Shown piece after piece: positions 7,107 through 13,239 of a stretch of DNA of 64,000 bases. Source of the DNA: Luteimonas mephitis DSM 12574 (GTDB taxonomy: Bacteria; Pseudomonadota; Gammaproteobacteria; Xanthomonadales; Xanthomonadaceae); assembly GCF_000422305.1 (NCBI RefSeq), contig NZ_AULN01000012.1, forward strand, positions 393,001-457,000, in the 5' to 3' direction. The notes below the pieces were generated by a model that was not told the origin of the DNA, ran no database searches, and saw nothing but the letters and a program-made list of their open reading frames with translations. How positions within the stretch are numbered: position 1 is the first letter of the stretch; each line of letters begins with the position of its first letter. A program made the position numbers and the translations under genes.

Positions 7107-7834
7107 GCCGCCCGGATGCCCCGGCGGCCGCGCAGCTGCCGCTGGCGCTGCGCTATCCGCCGGACCAGCGGTTCGACGGCTTCGTCGCCGCGCCGGCCGG
7201 GGCGCTGGCGCAGATCGAGGCGCTGGCCCTCGGACATTCCGCGGATTGGCTGTACCTAGTGGGCGCGCCGGGCTCCGGCAAGACCCATCTCGCGCTGTCT
7301 GCCTGCGCCGCGTCGCAGGCTGCCACGCGCCGCAGCGCGTACCTGCCGCTCGCGGCCGCCGCAGGGCGGATGCGCGAAGCGCTCGACGCGCTGCACGACA
7401 CGCCGTTCATCGCGCTCGACGGCCTCGACCTGGTGGCGGGCCGGCGCGAGGACGAAGTCGCGCTGTTCGACTTCCACAACCGCGCCCGCGACGCCGGCAT
7501 CGCCGTGCTCTACACCGCGCGAGCCGCACCCGATGCGCTGCCGCTGGTGCTGCCCGACCTGCGCTCGCGGCTGTCGCAGTGCCCGCGCATCGCACTTGCG
7601 CCGCTGGATGACGGCGGCCGCCGCCAGGTGCTGCGGCTGCGTGCGAAACGGCGCGGGTTGGCGATCGACGAGGCCGCGATCGACTGGCTGCTGCGCCGCG
7701 TCGACCGCGACCTGTCGAGCCTGGCGCGGCTGCTCGACCGGCTTGACCGCGCCTCGCTCGCCGAGCAGCGACGGATCACGGTGCCGTTCCTGCGCCAGGT
7801 GCTGGGCGGCGAGACGGGGCAGGGAACGCAATAG
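7103..7834 (+). CDS. hda: DnaA regulatory inactivator Hda
   Basis: Hda binds the DNA-loaded beta clamp and stimulates ATP hydrolysis on DnaA, limiting re-initiation. The GTG start at 7103 overlaps the permease stop. The N-terminus carries the clamp-binding hexapeptide QLPLAL (residues 11-16), then YPPDQRFDGFV, a Walker A LVGAPGSGKTHLALS, a Walker B-like FIALDGLDLV and the AAA+ lid region; 243 residues is normal. It is similar to the DnaA AAA+ domain but has no DNA-binding domain IV, which separates it from DnaA. No ATG in frame fits the family start better. Confidence 0.93.
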   Translation: MSRPDAPAAAQLPLALRYPPDQRFDGFVAAPAGALAQIEALALGHSADWLYLVGAPGSGKTHLALSACAASQAATRRSAYLPLAAAAGRMREALDALHDTPFIALDGLDLVAGRREDEVALFDFHNRARDAGIAVLYTARAAPDALPLVLPDLRSRLSQCPRIALAPLDDGGRRQVLRLRAKRRGLAIDEAAIDWLLRRVDRDLSSLARLLDRLDRASLAEQRRITVPFLRQVLGGETGQGTQ

Positions 7835-7935
7835 CGCAGTCGCGGCTCGTGGTGCCTCGCGCCGGCATGCCCGCGTGGGCGAGGGCAGGCCGATGCATTC
7901 CCGGGAGGCGGGTACCCCGGCAGCGCGACGGCCGC

Positions 7936-8724
7936 TCAGGGCTCGGGCGTTGCCTCGGGATCAGGCGTGGCTTCTTCCGTTGCCGGCACGTTCTCGAGTT
8001 CGCCGACATCGACCTGTCCATGCCTGGTTGAGCCCCATTCGGCATCCTGGGCCACGAAGTACGCCTGCGGATCCCAGAACTCGGCCGCGTAGTACTTCTC
8101 CGGCGCTATCGTCATGCCGGTGCCGGCCAGCGGCCCGGTCATCGGCGTGATCCGCAGGCCGCCGCCGACGAAGCCGGCGTGGCTGCCGGTGGTTTCCCGC
8201 TTCGCCTGCCGCATGACCTTCGCCAATCGCGGCTTGGCGGCGTCATCGCCGTACTCGGCCAGCAGCTGCTGGCCGCGCTCGATCGCGTCGCGGCGCTGGT
8301 CGGCGTCGAGAAGTGCCCAGTAGCGTTCGCGCTTGATCACGAAGTTGGGATACATGCGCTCGGCCGCCAGATCCATCCAGGCGTAAGCCAGCTCGCGGTC
8401 CTGCGGCACGCCCAGGCCTTTCCAGTACATCTCGGCGATCATCGCCTGCGAGGGCTTGTCGGCGTAGCGCGCGGCGCGCGTGAACTGGTCCAGTGCCAGC
8501 TCGTACTCCTTGCGGTTGTAGGAATACGCGCCTTCGCGCCGCCAGCGGATGTCGGGATGCGCGGTAAGGAAGCCCGAGGTGAGCATTTCCGGCGGAATGC
8601 CAGGTTCGCCGAGGTAGTTGCCGTACACCGCGCGCTCGGGCGGCGGCTGCGCCGTCAGCACGCGCGCGTTTGCCGGCGCCTGCGCCGTGGCCGCGAACGA
8701 AAGGCAGAGCAGGAACGACGACAT
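7936..8724 (-). CDS. Sel1-like repeat exported protein C (last gene of the ECF operon)
   Basis: Start at ATG 8724 gives 262 residues with a short signal peptide ending FAATAQA. An upstream RHRALAAW would make a better n-region but has no start codon. A conserved head (ARVLTAQPPPERAVYGNYLGE), then about one and a half Sel1/TPR-like repeats: YELALDQFTRAARYADKPSQ, AEMYWKGLGVPQDRELAYAW, and YPNFVIKRERYWALLDADQ. Near the C-terminus is the aromatic motif YYAAEFWDP shared with the two neighbours. It is very close to paralogue A at 9653-10489. Sel1 repeats normally mediate protein-protein contacts; an envelope scaffold or adaptor is an inference. The final 20 residues are acidic and Pro-rich. Confidence 0.75.
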   Translation of the reverse strand: MSSFLLCLSFAATAQAPANARVLTAQPPPERAVYGNYLGEPGIPPEMLTSGFLTAHPDIRWRREGAYSYNRKEYELALDQFTRAARYADKPSQAMIAEMYWKGLGVPQDRELAYAWMDLAAERMYPNFVIKRERYWALLDADQRRDAIERGQQLLAEYGDDAAKPRLAKVMRQAKRETTGSHAGFVGGGLRITPMTGPLAGTGMTIAPEKYYAAEFWDPQAYFVAQDAEWGSTRHGQVDVGELENVPATEEATPDPEATPEP

Positions 8725-8830
8725 CCATGCGGCTAGCGCACGATGGCGCGGGCTGGCCGAGGTGGCGGGGCGGGCAGGAAGCCCAGCACCACCGTGGTGG
8801 ACTGGACCGATGTCTTCACGAAAATGAAGT

Positions 8831-9583
8831 TCATTGCCCACTGTTCTTTCCCTTGGAGGTGCCGGCCGGCGGGGGTGGCGCCTGGTTGGCCGCGGACTGC
8901 GGGCTGCGCCAGTACTTTTTATCGTAGTACTCCGGCCCGGACAGCGAAGTGCCGGAAGTATCGCTGCTGCCATTGGTCGTGGTGACTTCCAGCGCGCCCG
9001 CGTAGCCGAGCCGGCTGCCGGTTGCCTGGTGGCGCGCCGTGCGGATGCTCCGTCGCAGCCTGGGGACGGCCTGTGCGTCGCCGTACTCGGCCTGCAGTGC
9101 CTGCACATGGGCCTCGCCCTTCGTGCGCTGCGCCGCATCGAGCTGCCGCCAATAGCGGTCGCGGAGCTGGACGTAGGTGCCGTCGCCGCGCTCGGCCGCA
9201 ATCGCCATCCATGCGAACGCTAGCGCAGGGTCGCGCACGGCGCCGGAGCCATCGTGGTGCATGCGCGCGAGGATCGACTGGGCCTGCTTGTCGCCATAGC
9301 GGGCTGCTCGCTGGAAGCGCAGGTAGGCTTCCTCGTCGCGGCCTTCGGACCGGGCCTGTTCGCCCGCGATGCGCCAGCGGATGTCAGGCCGTGCCGTGAG
9401 CAGCGCCTGGGTCTGGGTGGCGAGCGCGTCGCCGGTCGACTCGCGCAGCACCATCCGCCCGGTCACCGGCGTGTCCGGCGTGCTGAACGATGCCGTCGGC
9501 GTTCGCTTCGTCGTCTCCTGGGGCGCCGCGCTGGCGAGCGATGGCAACGAGGCGAGGACGATCAGGGCGATTGCCGTTTTCAT
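8831..9583 (-). CDS. Sel1-like repeat exported protein B
   Basis: Start at ATG 9583, preceded by AAGGAG, gives 250 residues. Residues 1-19 (MKTAIALIVLASLPSLASA) are a signal peptide. The body has EEAYLRFQRAARYGDKQAQ followed by ARMHHDGSGAVRDPALAFAW and AAERGDGTYVQLRDRYWRQL, the same Sel1-like succession as paralogues A and C but more diverged. It lacks their GNYxGEPGI head. The aromatic motif is EYYDKKYW, and the C-terminus ends in a Pro/Lys/Gly tail. Middle gene of three tandem paralogues. Function unknown. Confidence 0.75.
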   Translation of the reverse strand: MKTAIALIVLASLPSLASAAPQETTKRTPTASFSTPDTPVTGRMVLRESTGDALATQTQALLTARPDIRWRIAGEQARSEGRDEEAYLRFQRAARYGDKQAQSILARMHHDGSGAVRDPALAFAWMAIAAERGDGTYVQLRDRYWRQLDAAQRTKGEAHVQALQAEYGDAQAVPRLRRSIRTARHQATGSRLGYAGALEVTTTNGSSDTSGTSLSGPEYYDKKYWRSPQSAANQAPPPPAGTSKGKNSGQ

Positions 9584-9652
9584 GCGTGTGCTCCTTCGCA
9601 GGGGTTTCGGTGTTCGGCCCGGCATGCCGGGACGCCGGTAAGGACACGTGCG

Positions 9653-10489
9653 CTACCCGGCAGGCTCCGGCGGATGGCTGCGGGATGGACGGTCGGGCTT
9701 GGCGTCGTCATGGACGGGCTGCAGGTCGCCGACGTCCACGTGCCCCGTCCGGGCCGGCGCATGCCACATTTCGTCCTGCCACTCGAAGTACTTGTTGGTC
9801 CGCCAGTACTCGGGTTTGTAAAACGTTTCACCGGCAAGGGACACGCCGCTCAGGGGACCGGTCACGGGGATGACCGAAAGCCCAGGGTTGACGAAACCAA
9901 GGCGGCTGCCGGTGACCTGCCGGTTCGCCAGCCGCAGCTGTCGCTCCATCCGCGGCTTCGCCGCATCGTCACCATATTCGGCAAGCAGCGCCTGGCCGCG
10001 TTCGATCGCGTCGCGGCGCTGGCGCGCGCCCAGCTTCTGCCAGTAGCGCTCGCGCAGGATGACGAAGTTGGGATACATCCGCTCCGCCGCCAGGTCCATC
10101 CACGCGTAACCCAGCTCGCGATCGCGCGGCACGCCGATGCCCTCCCAGTACATCTCCGCGAGCATTGCCTGCGACGGCTTGTCGGCATGGCGCGCCGCGC
10201 GCAGGAACTGCGCCACCGCGATGTCGTATTCCTTGCGGTTGTAGGAGTACAGGCCCTCGCGCCGCCAGCGGATGTCGGGGTGCGAGGACAGGAACCCCTC
10301 GGTCAGGATGCCCGGATCGATGCCGGGCTCACCCATGTAATTGCCGCGCACTTCGCGTTCGACCGGGGGCTGCAGGGTCAAGACGCGCGGTGCCCGGCCG
10401 TCGTCGCGCGCCAGTGCGTAGCCGGAAGGAAGCAGCGACAGCGCGAGTGCCAACCCGAGCCCGGATGCAATGGCTGGCGGTCCCGACAT
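9653..10489 (-). CDS. Sel1-like repeat exported protein A
   Basis: Start at ATG 10489, preceded by GGGAGATG, gives 278 residues. A signal peptide covers about residues 1-26 (SGLGLALALSLLPSGYALA). The mature part starts PRVLTLQPPVEREVRGNYMG and holds YDIAVAQFLRAARHADKPSQ, AEMYWEGIGVPRDRELGYAW and YPNFVILRERYWQKLGARQ, which are Sel1/TPR-like helices, and then GPLSGVSLAGETFYKPEYW, the shared aromatic motif. It is nearly collinear with paralogue C. It follows the PDZ gene by 49 bp in the ECF sigma operon. No enzymatic motif is visible; a binding role is inferred from the repeat type. Confidence 0.76.
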   Translation of the reverse strand: MSGPPAIASGLGLALALSLLPSGYALARDDGRAPRVLTLQPPVEREVRGNYMGEPGIDPGILTEGFLSSHPDIRWRREGLYSYNRKEYDIAVAQFLRAARHADKPSQAMLAEMYWEGIGVPRDRELGYAWMDLAAERMYPNFVILRERYWQKLGARQRRDAIERGQALLAEYGDDAAKPRMERQLRLANRQVTGSRLGFVNPGLSVIPVTGPLSGVSLAGETFYKPEYWRTNKYFEWQDEMWHAPARTGHVDVGDLQPVHDDAKPDRPSRSHPPEPAG

Positions 10490-10538
10490 GTTGCATCTCC
10501 CTTGGTCTGCAGATTTCCCTTGAGCGACTGGTGGCGGA

Positions 10539-11420
10539 TCACCGGCACTTGGCGGCCCGCTGCTCCCACACCACCGGTTCCCAGTACTCGTTGGCGCGGA
10601 TGCTGTCACGGTCCAACCGCTCCTTGCGCAGGCGCGCGCCGATCCGGTAGTCGGTGTCCGGCTTGATGTCCACGACCAACGGCTTGTAGGCGCGCGCCAT
10701 GGATTGCCGCTGCATCAACGAACGCTGCATGTTCTGGGAGGGGAGCAGCCGATGCTCGGGAATCAGCTCCTGCACCGTCAGGACGTGGCGCCCGGCGTCC
10801 ACGCGCAGGCGATTGACGAGTCCGGGCGGCGTGCTGCGGCCGTCGATGGTGCTGATGAACGCCTCGAACAGGCCCTTGCTGCGCGGCGGCAACGCGGAAT
10901 AGGTCACATAGCCGCAGCCGGTTGCGTGGTTCGCGGTGGCTTCGCCGATGGTGAGCCGGTAGGCGGGGACGGCTGCGGCATCGGCACTGCCGGCGAGTTC
11001 GACGCGCGTCTTGCCGCGAGCTGCCAGCAGCCGCACGCTGCCGTTGCTTGCCGCCATCGCGTCACGCAGCAAAGTTGCGGGCGTGGCCTGGCCGTCGAGG
11101 CGGCGGCCGTTGATCGCAACCAGCCGGTCGCCGGTTTTCAGGCCCATGCGCGCTGCGGCGCCATCGGGTGTGATCGCGAGCACTTCCAGCCCCTGCGGAT
11201 CGGGCTTGCGCACGTCCACCACCGCGCCCAGTTCATAGCGCACCTGTGCCGGGCGGGCGATGACGAGCGGCTGGTCGAAATTGCCCAGCGCGCCGCGCTC
11301 TGCCAGGTGCAGGAGGGTGGCGTCCATTTCCGCCTCGACCTGCTTGCCGTTGTCAGCGGCAAGCAGCAGGCCGGGGACGACGAGGCAGACGAGGAGCGTG
11401 AAGCCGCGGATGACGGACAT
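10539..11420 (-). CDS. Exported PDZ-domain protein
   Basis: A 293-residue protein with a signal peptide (FTLLVCLVVPGLLLAADN, cleavage near residue 22). Residues about 65-140 form a PDZ domain: LEVLAITPDGAAARMGLKTG then DRLVAINGRRLDG is the classical carboxylate-loop and beta-strand pattern. There is no trypsin-like protease or C-terminal processing-protease triad, so this is a stand-alone PDZ adaptor. The C-terminal third ends with RANEYWEPVVWEQRA, an aromatic motif that resembles the YxxxYW motif in the three Sel1 paralogues downstream. It follows the putative anti-sigma gene by 15 bp. A periplasmic location and a scaffold role are inferred. Confidence 0.78.
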   Translation of the reverse strand: MSVIRGFTLLVCLVVPGLLLAADNGKQVEAEMDATLLHLAERGALGNFDQPLVIARPAQVRYELGAVVDVRKPDPQGLEVLAITPDGAAARMGLKTGDRLVAINGRRLDGQATPATLLRDAMAASNGSVRLLAARGKTRVELAGSADAAAVPAYRLTIGEATANHATGCGYVTYSALPPRSKGLFEAFISTIDGRSTPPGLVNRLRVDAGRHVLTVQELIPEHRLLPSQNMQRSLMQRQSMARAYKPLVVDIKPDTDYRIGARLRKERLDRDSIRANEYWEPVVWEQRAAKCR

Positions 11421-11435
11421 GGGGAAATCCTCGGG

Positions 11436-11858
11436 TCAGATGCGCAGGCTGCGGGGCAGCGGGGAGTTGGTGGTGGCGTTGTTGCCGGCGAGCAGCTGCC
11501 GGCGCTGCGCCCAGAGAGGTTCGAGTTCGGCGTCGCTGGCATTGCGGGCGTAACCGGCCTGCAGGGCGCGATCGAGCGCGCGCAGTTCGGCGTCCACGTC
11601 GTCGGGACCCGCTTTGCGGGGCGCGTGAGCGGCCGCTGCCACGGTGGATGCAGGTTGCGCGTTTTCCGGCGCGGACGGCTGCATCAGAGGCGAAAAGGCG
11701 ATGACCGCGGCCACCGCCAGCGTGGTGGCCGCAACGGCGAGCCGTCGCTGGCGGCCGCGCCGGCGTGCGCCGTTGACGCGCGACCAGAGGTTGTCCGGCA
11801 GCGGTGCTTCCGGCAGCTGCCGCAGGTGCTCCTGCAGGATGTCGTCATTCGTTGTCAT
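11436..11858 (-). CDS. Probable membrane anti-sigma factor
   Basis: A 140-residue protein: a cytoplasmic N-terminus (about 38 residues, ILQEHLRQLPEAPLPDNLWS), a basic stretch (ARRRGRQRRL), one membrane helix (about residues 39-58) and a charged periplasmic domain (DDVDAELRALDRALQAGYAR). The gene begins inside the 3' end of the ECF sigma gene (14-bp overlap). Gene order, coupling and topology fit an anti-sigma factor. It lacks the HxxxCxxC zinc motif of ZAS proteins, so the call rests on context rather than on a recognised anti-sigma domain. A periplasmic sensor role for the C-terminal part would be typical but is inferred. Confidence 0.65.
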   Translation of the reverse strand: MTTNDDILQEHLRQLPEAPLPDNLWSRVNGARRRGRQRRLAVAATTLAVAAVIAFSPLMQPSAPENAQPASTVAAAAHAPRKAGPDDVDAELRALDRALQAGYARNASDAELEPLWAQRRQLLAGNNATTNSPLPRSLRI

Positions 11859-12393
11859 GGGGGTGTGCTTCGTCCAGTTCCAGCCGCAGCCGTGCCAGGG
11901 TTCGCGAGACGATCGACTTCGACCAGCTCTCGCTGCGTCCGAAGCGCCGGCCCAGCTCCGGATGCGACCAGCCTTCCATTGCGTGCAGCCATACGACGGT
12001 ACGTTCGGTGGGGCTCAACCGTCGCAGCAGGCCGAGGGATTCGGCGTGGAGCAGTGGATCGGGCCCGTTCGCGGGCTGTGCGTCGTCGTCCTCGATGGCG
12101 AGCAGGCGCCGGTCGCGGCGGATGCGGTCGATCGCCGCGTTGGCCGCCACCCGCTTCAGCCACGGCCGCAGCGGCGTGCCGTCGCGCAGGCCGCCGAGGA
12201 ACTGCAGCATCTTCAGGAAGCATTCCTGGGTGATGTCTTCGGCGGTCGCGTGGTTGCCGGTCAGGCGCAGCGCGAGCGAGTGGATCGCGCGCGCATGGCG
12301 GCGATAGATCTCGGCGAACGCGGCTTCCTGCCCCCGGCGTGCGCGGCGGACCAGTTGCGTTTCGTCATCCTTGGCATCAGAGGGATCGGACAT
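11845..12393 (-). CDS. ECF-type RNA polymerase sigma factor
   Basis: A 182-residue sigma-70 family protein with only regions 2 and 4. Region 2 holds AFAEIYRRHARAIHSLALRL, then the core-binding and -10 part DITQECFLKMLQFLGGLRDG and NAAIDRIRRDRR. Region 4 holds LRRLSPTERTVVWLHAMEGW and the helix-turn-helix SHPELGRRFGRSESWSKSIV. It is the first gene of a leftward operon with the anti-sigma, PDZ and three Sel1 genes, so it probably controls that operon. I could not find a convincing ECF promoter (GGAAC-like -35) in the 69 bp before it. Confidence 0.92.
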   Translation of the reverse strand: MSDPSDAKDDETQLVRRARRGQEAAFAEIYRRHARAIHSLALRLTGNHATAEDITQECFLKMLQFLGGLRDGTPLRPWLKRVAANAAIDRIRRDRRLLAIEDDDAQPANGPDPLLHAESLGLLRRLSPTERTVVWLHAMEGWSHPELGRRFGRSESWSKSIVSRTLARLRLELDEAHPHDNE

Positions 12394-12462
12394 TGCATCA
12401 AGGTACGCGCGGAGGCACGCAATCGTCGCAGCGTGCGTATGCCGGGAGCGCCGCGTCGCGGC

Positions 12463-13239
<777 letters not shown>

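Follow-up and report, generated by a model that had tools for sequence, protein, structure and literature searches.

The window analysed here is a stretch of 64,000 nucleotides from Luteimonas mephitis DSM 12574 (contig NZ_AULN01000012.1, positions 393,001 to 457,000). It contains 6 leftward genes for an extracytoplasmic function (ECF) sigma factor, a candidate anti-sigma factor, an exported PDZ protein and 3 exported Sel1-like proteins, here called A, B, and C. We propose, with a probability of roughly 0.65, that the locus encodes an autoregulated ECF sigma system of the Lysobacteraceae that controls exported envelope proteins and in which the tail of the anti-sigma factor would be read by the PDZ protein. 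The following features were identified, with promoter sites scored by a position weight matrix (PWM) and the structure model by its predicted local distance difference test (pLDDT):

12404..12430, minus strand: predicted sigma-type promoter TGCGACG-N16-CGTA, 10 nt before the sigma ATG; PWM score 30.4; motif before the sigma gene in most relatives
11845..12393, minus strand: ECF sigma factor of 182 aa with only regions 2 and 4; Sigma70_r2 62.9 bits and Sigma70_r4_2 34.3 bits (Pfam), TIGR02937 69.1 bits (cut-off 42.9)
12000..12026, minus strand: second copy of the promoter motif, internal to the sigma gene and 141 bp upstream of the anti-sigma start; PWM score 30.7
11436..11858, minus strand: candidate single-pass anti-sigma factor, 140 aa; sigma overlap, family alignment, AlphaFold model with pLDDT 81
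11439..11450, minus strand: codons for the C-terminal SLRI, predicted PDZ ligand; I/L ends in relatives
10539..11420, minus strand: exported PDZ protein, 293 aa; PDZ_6 33.0 bits (Pfam), no protease domain
9653..10489, minus strand: Sel1-like exported protein A, 278 aa; Sel1 33.0 bits, sister of C in the tree (96/95)
8831..9583, minus strand: Sel1-like exported protein B (250 aa), which has diverged strongly; Sel1 28.9 bits, under the cut-off of 30.7, long tree branch
7936..8724, minus strand: Sel1-like exported protein C, starting at ATG 8724 with 262 aa (301 aa from GTG 8841); Sel1 32.6 bits (cut-off 30.7)

The gene inventory agreed with an earlier note made from the letters of the window. 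All 6 genes, including those for the sigma factor, the PDZ protein and the 3 Sel1-like proteins, were present on the minus strand with the Pfam scores listed above, B falling just below the cut-off. The sigma and anti-sigma genes overlapped by 14 bp, and the anti-sigma candidate contained one hydrophobic helix and no zinc motif, as the note had described. Its view of A and C as duplicates and of B as a diverged copy was also borne out, with identities of about 59% to 63% between A and C and of 38% to 44% between B and A. Signal peptides were judged by eye, and the start of protein C at ATG 8724 was considered more likely than that at GTG 8841 because a signal-peptide-like start was seen there. 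A scan of positions 7700-12600 recovered 0 sigma-70-type promoters and 0 intrinsic terminators, and thus neither hinted at an interruption of the operon nor gave positive evidence of continuity.

The anti-sigma function of the second gene was assigned from position and topology rather than from a family match, and the protein is a candidate in this sense. Pfam gave nothing above threshold (best SteA-like_C, E-value 0.08), the N- and C-terminal domains of RseA were not found in it, and a search of solved folds returned a best E-value of 0.9 and none under 0.001. The zinc motif HxxxCxxC was absent from the window protein, whose 140 residues contain no cysteine; some relatives contained single cysteines, none of them in a HxxxCxxC setting as judged by eye from the alignment. 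The AlphaFold model comprises an N-terminal part, a long helix (residues 24-59) with a hydrophobic stretch, a periplasmic helical hairpin (85-130) and a free tail, SLRI. The PDZ protein consists of a signal-peptide-like start, a helix at residues 24-41, an HtrA-type PDZ domain at about 58-153 and a C-terminal beta domain with Cys169, Cys292 and the sequence YWEPVVW. Only PDZ-type domains scored above the Pfam cut-offs in this protein, a MucB_RseB domain was not found among them, and neither Pfam nor the structure model revealed a trypsin-like protease domain before the PDZ domain.

To place the locus in the family, the PDZ protein was searched for in 149 family genomes, 52 genomes of the genus and 3 genomes reached through the loci, and the loci, here numbered with the prefix L, were fetched. 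A copy of the window (L074) was left out, L072 was left out of the PDZ alignment, and the 3 weakest of the anti-sigma homologues described below were left out of the tail count. Because rule-based gene calling had missed the sigma gene in 3 loci (L040, L052, L070) and set wrong starts in 4 others (L046, L048, L153, L154), the linkage was recounted with tblastn for the 37 loci with a PDZ-bearing homologue. The sigma gene was present in 35 of the 37 loci, with gene midpoints 0.9 to 2.9 kb apart, and the 2 loci without it, L055 and L152, stop at contig edges. As read from this gene content, the conserved core is an ECF sigma factor, a putative single-pass anti-sigma factor and an exported PDZ protein. 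The PDZ family is patchily distributed, with matches in 8 of 52 genomes of the genus at an E-value of 1e-15.

The core was located between murU and hda in 17 of the 37 loci, as it is in the window, and beside pdxJ or elsewhere in the others. The names murU, hda, perM, manC, pcrA, tdk, pdxJ, rdgC and AmgK, and the label NTF2-like, are presumed identities. A MurU-like gene (window 12463-13170) adjoins the core as in the relatives; these usually have an AmgK-like gene ahead of the MurU-like one, but neither in the window nor in L057 was such a gene beside it. A strictly conserved six-gene operon was ruled out, since only the window and L073 have Sel1 genes next to the core, L073 being the one locus of the 37 counted with Sel1 beside the sigma gene. 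The envelope module proposed in the earlier note was therefore retained for the sigma, anti-sigma and PDZ genes and abandoned for the Sel1 genes as constant neighbours. Same-sized contigs alone (12291, 15500, 3748, 22917) suggest that a window-like arrangement is also found in a few close metagenomic relatives.

The C-terminus of the anti-sigma candidate would provide the link between the products of the second and the third gene of the core. I or L was the last residue in 21 of 31 distinct anti-sigma proteins, compared with 5.2% of 653 other genes, and the phi-x-I/L tail was found in 14 of the 31, compared with 1.1% of other genes. A profile search identified 54 homologues, and 46 of the 51 with E-values <1e-9, some of them from Rhodanobacteraceae, end in I/L; a few of the 51 are identical to proteins of the loci already counted, the window's own cluster among them. 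The tails include SLRI, GLRI, VVRI, VTRI, VIEL and VISL, with variable preceding residues. The free tail thus appears to carry a conserved hydrophobic residue, as a PDZ ligand would. PDZ domains bind the last 3 to 4 residues, as stated in a passage of PMC8103513. The PDZ domain of the window protein has an LGAV carboxylate loop and an HtrA2/DegS fold, and the fold-search lists were filled by PDZ domains. The PDZ gene next door would be the obvious reader of the tail. The phi-x-I/L tail and the helix at the N-terminus of the PDZ protein also varied together, as judged by eye in the readable cases (12 of 12 versus 0 of 15). In one group of loci, g20, the carboxylate loop reads LDAV or LDVV (L051, L053, L055, L060) and the 3 readable tails end in SS, whereas L056 of the same group has an LGAV loop and yet a tail that ends in SRG.

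Several observations count against a general role for the tail. The I/L tail has been lost in 10 of the 31 anti-sigma proteins, all in a clade of 22 genes, 5 of the 51 homologues also lack it, and in L042, L049, and L056 it is lost despite an apparently intact PDZ loop. Because of these losses, some of them beside an apparently intact loop, binding of the tail is not universal. The co-variation with the N-terminal helix rests on 2 to 3 independent pairs, which are too few for a test, and a scripted length proxy for the N-terminal segment of the PDZ protein (8 of 12 versus 0 of 16) was confounded by mis-called starts. Finally, a C-terminal I/L could also signal a tail-specific protease.

This last point leads to an alternative, namely that the tail is a degron for a general periplasmic tail-specific protease of the Prc/CtpA type or is read by the PDZ domain of an RseP- or DegS-like protease, the co-encoded PDZ protein being a mere output of the regulon that makes no contact with the anti-sigma factor. 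Proteases with PDZ domains classically recognise nonpolar C-termini. Lone copies of the C-terminal domain also occur as separate genes, beside the sigma gene or without it, so that the PDZ protein may be an effector. However, the PDZ-bearing form accompanies the sigma/anti-sigma pair in 35 of 37 loci, whereas the sigma gene was found in 0 of the 6 fetched stretches that contain only PDZ-less copies of the C-terminal domain (L064-L069), which argues that the PDZ domain follows the anti-sigma factor. The phi-x-I/L tail is moreover associated with a single form of the PDZ protein, albeit in few independent pairs. We consider the degron explanation unlikely, though not negligible. The C-terminal beta domain may itself be the effector of the system. 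Arrays of PDZ-less copies of this domain adjoin the sigma gene in L062, L063, and L155.

The regulatory part of the proposed system builds on the promoter motif. The pattern TGCGACG-N16-CGTA (or CGTC) was common to the upstream regions of the sigma genes, mostly 8 to 15 nt before the start, and the PWM was built from 16 of these sites. A score of at least 19 within 70 nt of the called sigma start was obtained for 21 of 31 genes. Most of these are training sites, at which the scores are circular and to that extent weaken the case. Among the loci outside the training set, scores of 19.7 to 27.8 were obtained before the sigma gene in L149 (one of 2 copies), L151, L153, L154, L155, and L156, and no motif was found before it in L150; good sites were also missing before the sigma genes of L041, L061, L062, and L073. 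When the matrix was run across the window, nothing scored above 11.4 after the 2 sites at 30.4 and 30.7. The conserved motif 10 nt before its own start indicates that the sigma factor is autoregulated, to judge from the sequence, and its mRNA is possibly leaderless or nearly so.

To search for further targets, the motif pattern was compared between 23 genomes with the core and 23 without it, with the reversed pattern as control. A genome was classified as lacking the system if it had no PDZ-family match >100 bits, a criterion based on the PDZ family and not on a direct search for the sigma factor. The pattern CTGCGACG-N16-CGTA gave 44 matches in the genomes with the core (control 29) and 15 in those without (control 35). 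Half of the 44 matches (22) were at the sigma locus, and the other 22 were divided into 17 intergenic sites and 5 inside genes. For the genomes without the core, 10 of the 15 matches were inspected, of which 9 were inside genes and 1 was intergenic. The 17 intergenic sites were located before Sel1 genes (6), before small exported proteins in one syntenic place (4), before DUF3016 genes (2), beside rdgC (2), before genes for a DUF6491 and a DUF4136 protein (2) and before a MerR regulator (1). The match of the window genome itself, C5:365341, is one of the 4 sites before small exported proteins. The gene at G000:C5:364964-365287 (L198) has a sigma-type motif 53 bp upstream and encodes an exported protein of 108 aa that contains the sequence CLRQTGS and belongs to no Pfam family; its relatives at the syntenic place also carry such a promoter motif. 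The DUF3016 proteins with an upstream sigma-type motif (L195 and L201, in 2 genomes) provide a lead to the function of DUF3016.

The exact motif was found before 8 of 28 examined Sel1 genes in genomes with the core and before 0 of 18 in genomes without it, and sites with a matrix score of at least 14 were distributed in the same manner (8 of 28 versus 0 of 18, Fisher 0.015). With the addition of G139 (matrix score 15.7) and the double-Sel1 gene of G018 (20.1), 10 of the 21 other sigma-bearing genomes had the motif upstream of an unlinked Sel1 gene. In the case of the window genome's small exported protein, the exact motif was present in 5 of 13 cases in genomes with the core and in 0 of 14 without. 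Random 310-nt windows scored at least 14 in 1% of cases, in a control that includes loci with true sites. Some results pull in the other direction. The contrast for the small protein was not significant at a matrix score of at least 14 (3 of 13 versus 0 of 14, p 0.098), no motif was seen before a Sel1 gene in 11 of the 21 other sigma-bearing genomes, and 13 of 41 non-window Sel1 matches were outside the examined set. A looser pattern, TGCGACG-N16-CGTM, was not enriched in the genome of the window (7 versus 32 for the reversed control), and the case for the regulon is based on position and comparison and not on counts. That 10 of 21 other sigma-bearing genomes have the motif ahead of an unlinked Sel1 gene, compared with 0 of 18 Sel1 genes outside, supports the assignment of Sel1 to the putative sigma regulon.

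The Sel1 relatives were commoner than the PDZ family, with matches in 89 of 149 genomes at an E-value of 1e-15, and many of the unlinked genes were located between pcrA and tdk. No Sel1 gene was found between pcrA and tdk in the window genome. An open reading frame of 572 aa with a signal-peptide-like start (G000:C3, L258 3904-5622) fills the place occupied by the Sel1 genes of the relatives. In the tree, which omits the duplicate loci L192, L212, L213, and L218 and rows shorter than 170 aa, A and C were sisters (96/95) and were joined with weaker support (88/84) by L086 and L087, two unlinked Sel1 genes at which the motif scores weakly (15.4 and 15.7). A and C were placed within a 16-row clade (96/89), in which most of the unlinked Sel1 genes that bear the motif are also found. 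Because of this placement and of the lack of a Sel1 gene between pcrA and tdk, it is probable that the Sel1 genes left that place for the operon and were duplicated there in this Luteimonas-like lineage.

An insertion of the Sel1 genes behind the PDZ gene by chance, unrelated to the sigma factor, would agree with their position beside the core in only this lineage and L073, and with the sigma-bearing genomes in which no motif precedes Sel1. It is nevertheless improbable given the 10 of 21 versus 0 of 18 contrast, the second linkage in L073 and the close Sel1 relative L090, which lacks the motif in a genome (G087) with no sigma gene in its locus. The earlier note had held that the module would fail if homologues of the PDZ and Sel1 genes usually occurred without the sigma gene. 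By this measure the PDZ genes, linked to it in nearly all loci, uphold the module, and the Sel1 genes, unlinked elsewhere, do not, yet the promoter motif ties them to the sigma factor. The grouping made in that note is thus upheld in terms of regulation, but neither in terms of a constant Sel1 neighbourhood nor through its motif argument, to which we return below.

The second copy of the motif, inside the sigma gene, showed a clear signature at the codon level. In the supported clade of 22 sigma genes, a score of at least 14 was obtained for the intragenic site in 18 genes. Residue 124 was encoded by CGA in 13 and by CAA in 6 of the 22 genes, and residue 131 by CGT in 19, although CGA makes up 2.9% of the arginine codons, CAA 8.7% of the glutamine codons and CGT 8.2% of the arginine codons over all loci. 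The columns of residues 124 and 131 ranked first and third of 171 in codon rarity, at a median protein identity of 55%; binomial figures for the rare codons are rough, as kinship is ignored. A sister clade of 9 sigma genes had no intragenic site. In L149 (G150:C22), the core occurs twice in tandem, with a high-scoring upstream motif (27.8) in one copy and an intragenic motif (16.0) in the other. A constraint on coding or translation would be in line with the location of the motif within a conserved stretch, L-R/Q-R-L-x-P-x-x-R-T. Such a constraint is a very improbable explanation, however, since the rare codons CGA, CAA, and CGT persist although CGC and CAG are the dominant choices, TGCRACG is kept even as the residue varies between R and Q, the spacing of 16 nt is that of the upstream promoter, and L041 and L047 of the sister clade code for R-T at this place and still lack the site. 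The case for a conserved intragenic feedback promoter in the sigma gene, drawn from these codon patterns, is strong.

The earlier note had also suggested a common partner for the PDZ and Sel1 proteins, on the grounds of a related aromatic motif near their C-termini. The strings YKPEYW (A), YDKKYW (B), YAAEFWDP (C) and RANEYWEPVVW (PDZ) are present, and each is conserved within its own family (W280 and P282 are invariant in the PDZ family, and Y224 and W229 in the close Sel1 relatives). Homology between them was rejected, since the hhalign probability for the 2 families was 0.6% and the motifs were not aligned. In the structure model, YWEPVVW lies in the last beta-strand of a folded domain, whereas the Sel1 motif comes after the repeat and recurs in the majority of Sel1 genes of genomes without the sigma factor. 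A single envelope complex assembled through this motif is hence highly improbable, in spite of the strong conservation within families and the support for co-regulation, and the argument for a common partner is not supported.

In the autoregulated ECF system that we propose, the sigma factor would bind TGCGACG-N16-CGTA before its own gene, inside it and before unlinked genes for exported proteins, and the anti-sigma factor would hold it at the inner membrane. The periplasmic -SLRI tail would be the ligand of the co-encoded exported PDZ protein, itself without a protease, and binding would mask or present the tail and so set the rate at which envelope proteases remove the anti-sigma factor. Active sigma factor would in turn drive extra anti-sigma and PDZ protein from the intragenic promoter, as a built-in shut-off. 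The motifs before and inside the sigma gene, the candidate regulon members and the conservation of the tail are visible in the sequences, whereas the rest of the mechanism is inferred. A protective action of the PDZ protein, as for RseB/MucB, seems the more likely direction, as it is made together with the inhibitor; this guess from co-expression is the weakest step. The murU neighbour and the exported targets suggest that the signal is possibly damage to the envelope or the peptidoglycan. More tentatively, the locus may represent a new form of ECF control, in which the anti-sigma tail is caught by a soluble PDZ protein of the periplasm that is itself non-proteolytic, the PDZ-fused copy could report the ligand or load of the free beta-domain copies to the anti-sigma factor, and the intragenic promoter resets the switch.

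The analysis provides a sigma factor without known function with a promoter motif and a predicted exported regulon (Sel1, DUF3016, DUF6491, DUF4136, and small exported proteins), and offers a testable molecular handle in an anti-sigma tail that would be read by a dedicated PDZ protein. It also presents a likely example of a target gene family that has moved into the operon of its regulator, and of a feedback promoter inside a gene that is visible as a constraint on synonymous codons. No description of the system was found in the literature searched; the main ECF classification was outside that search and may list it.

The closest known systems are RpoE-RseA-RseB and AlgU-MucA-MucB with DegS/AlgW and RseP (PMC8103513, PMC8545111), in which PDZ domains read C-termini. 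The system in the window resembles these in having an ECF sigma factor, a putative single-pass anti-sigma factor with a periplasmic C-terminus, a co-encoded exported protein and a predicted envelope output. It differs from them in that no RseA or RseB/MucB family match was found here, the PDZ protein encoded alongside stands alone and has no protease domain, and the predicted ligand is the anti-sigma factor's own tail and not that of an outer-membrane protein. The sigma-E consensus also differs from the promoter motif described here. The PDZ domain is like those of DegS, AlgW, and HtrA2 in fold and carboxylate loop, but unlike in HtrA-type proteins it lacks a trypsin-like domain and is fused to a small beta domain with 2 invariant cysteines. 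PDZ interactions also tie an anti-sigma factor to proteolysis in the mycobacterial Ppr/Rip1 system (PDZ-interacting protease regulators), where the PDZ domain instead sits on the site-2 protease. The Sel1-like proteins are exported and contain a Sel1 repeat, as do those of the AlgK, MotX, and ExoR type, from which they differ in that a single repeat is recognised and is accompanied by a long, conserved tail at the C-terminus; their matches to the AlgK, MotX, and ExoR models were weak and below the curated cut-offs. Taken together, we regard the system as a variant of the ECF/anti-sigma type, set apart by what we infer to be a dedicated non-protease reader of the anti-sigma tail and by a conserved, predicted intragenic feedback promoter.

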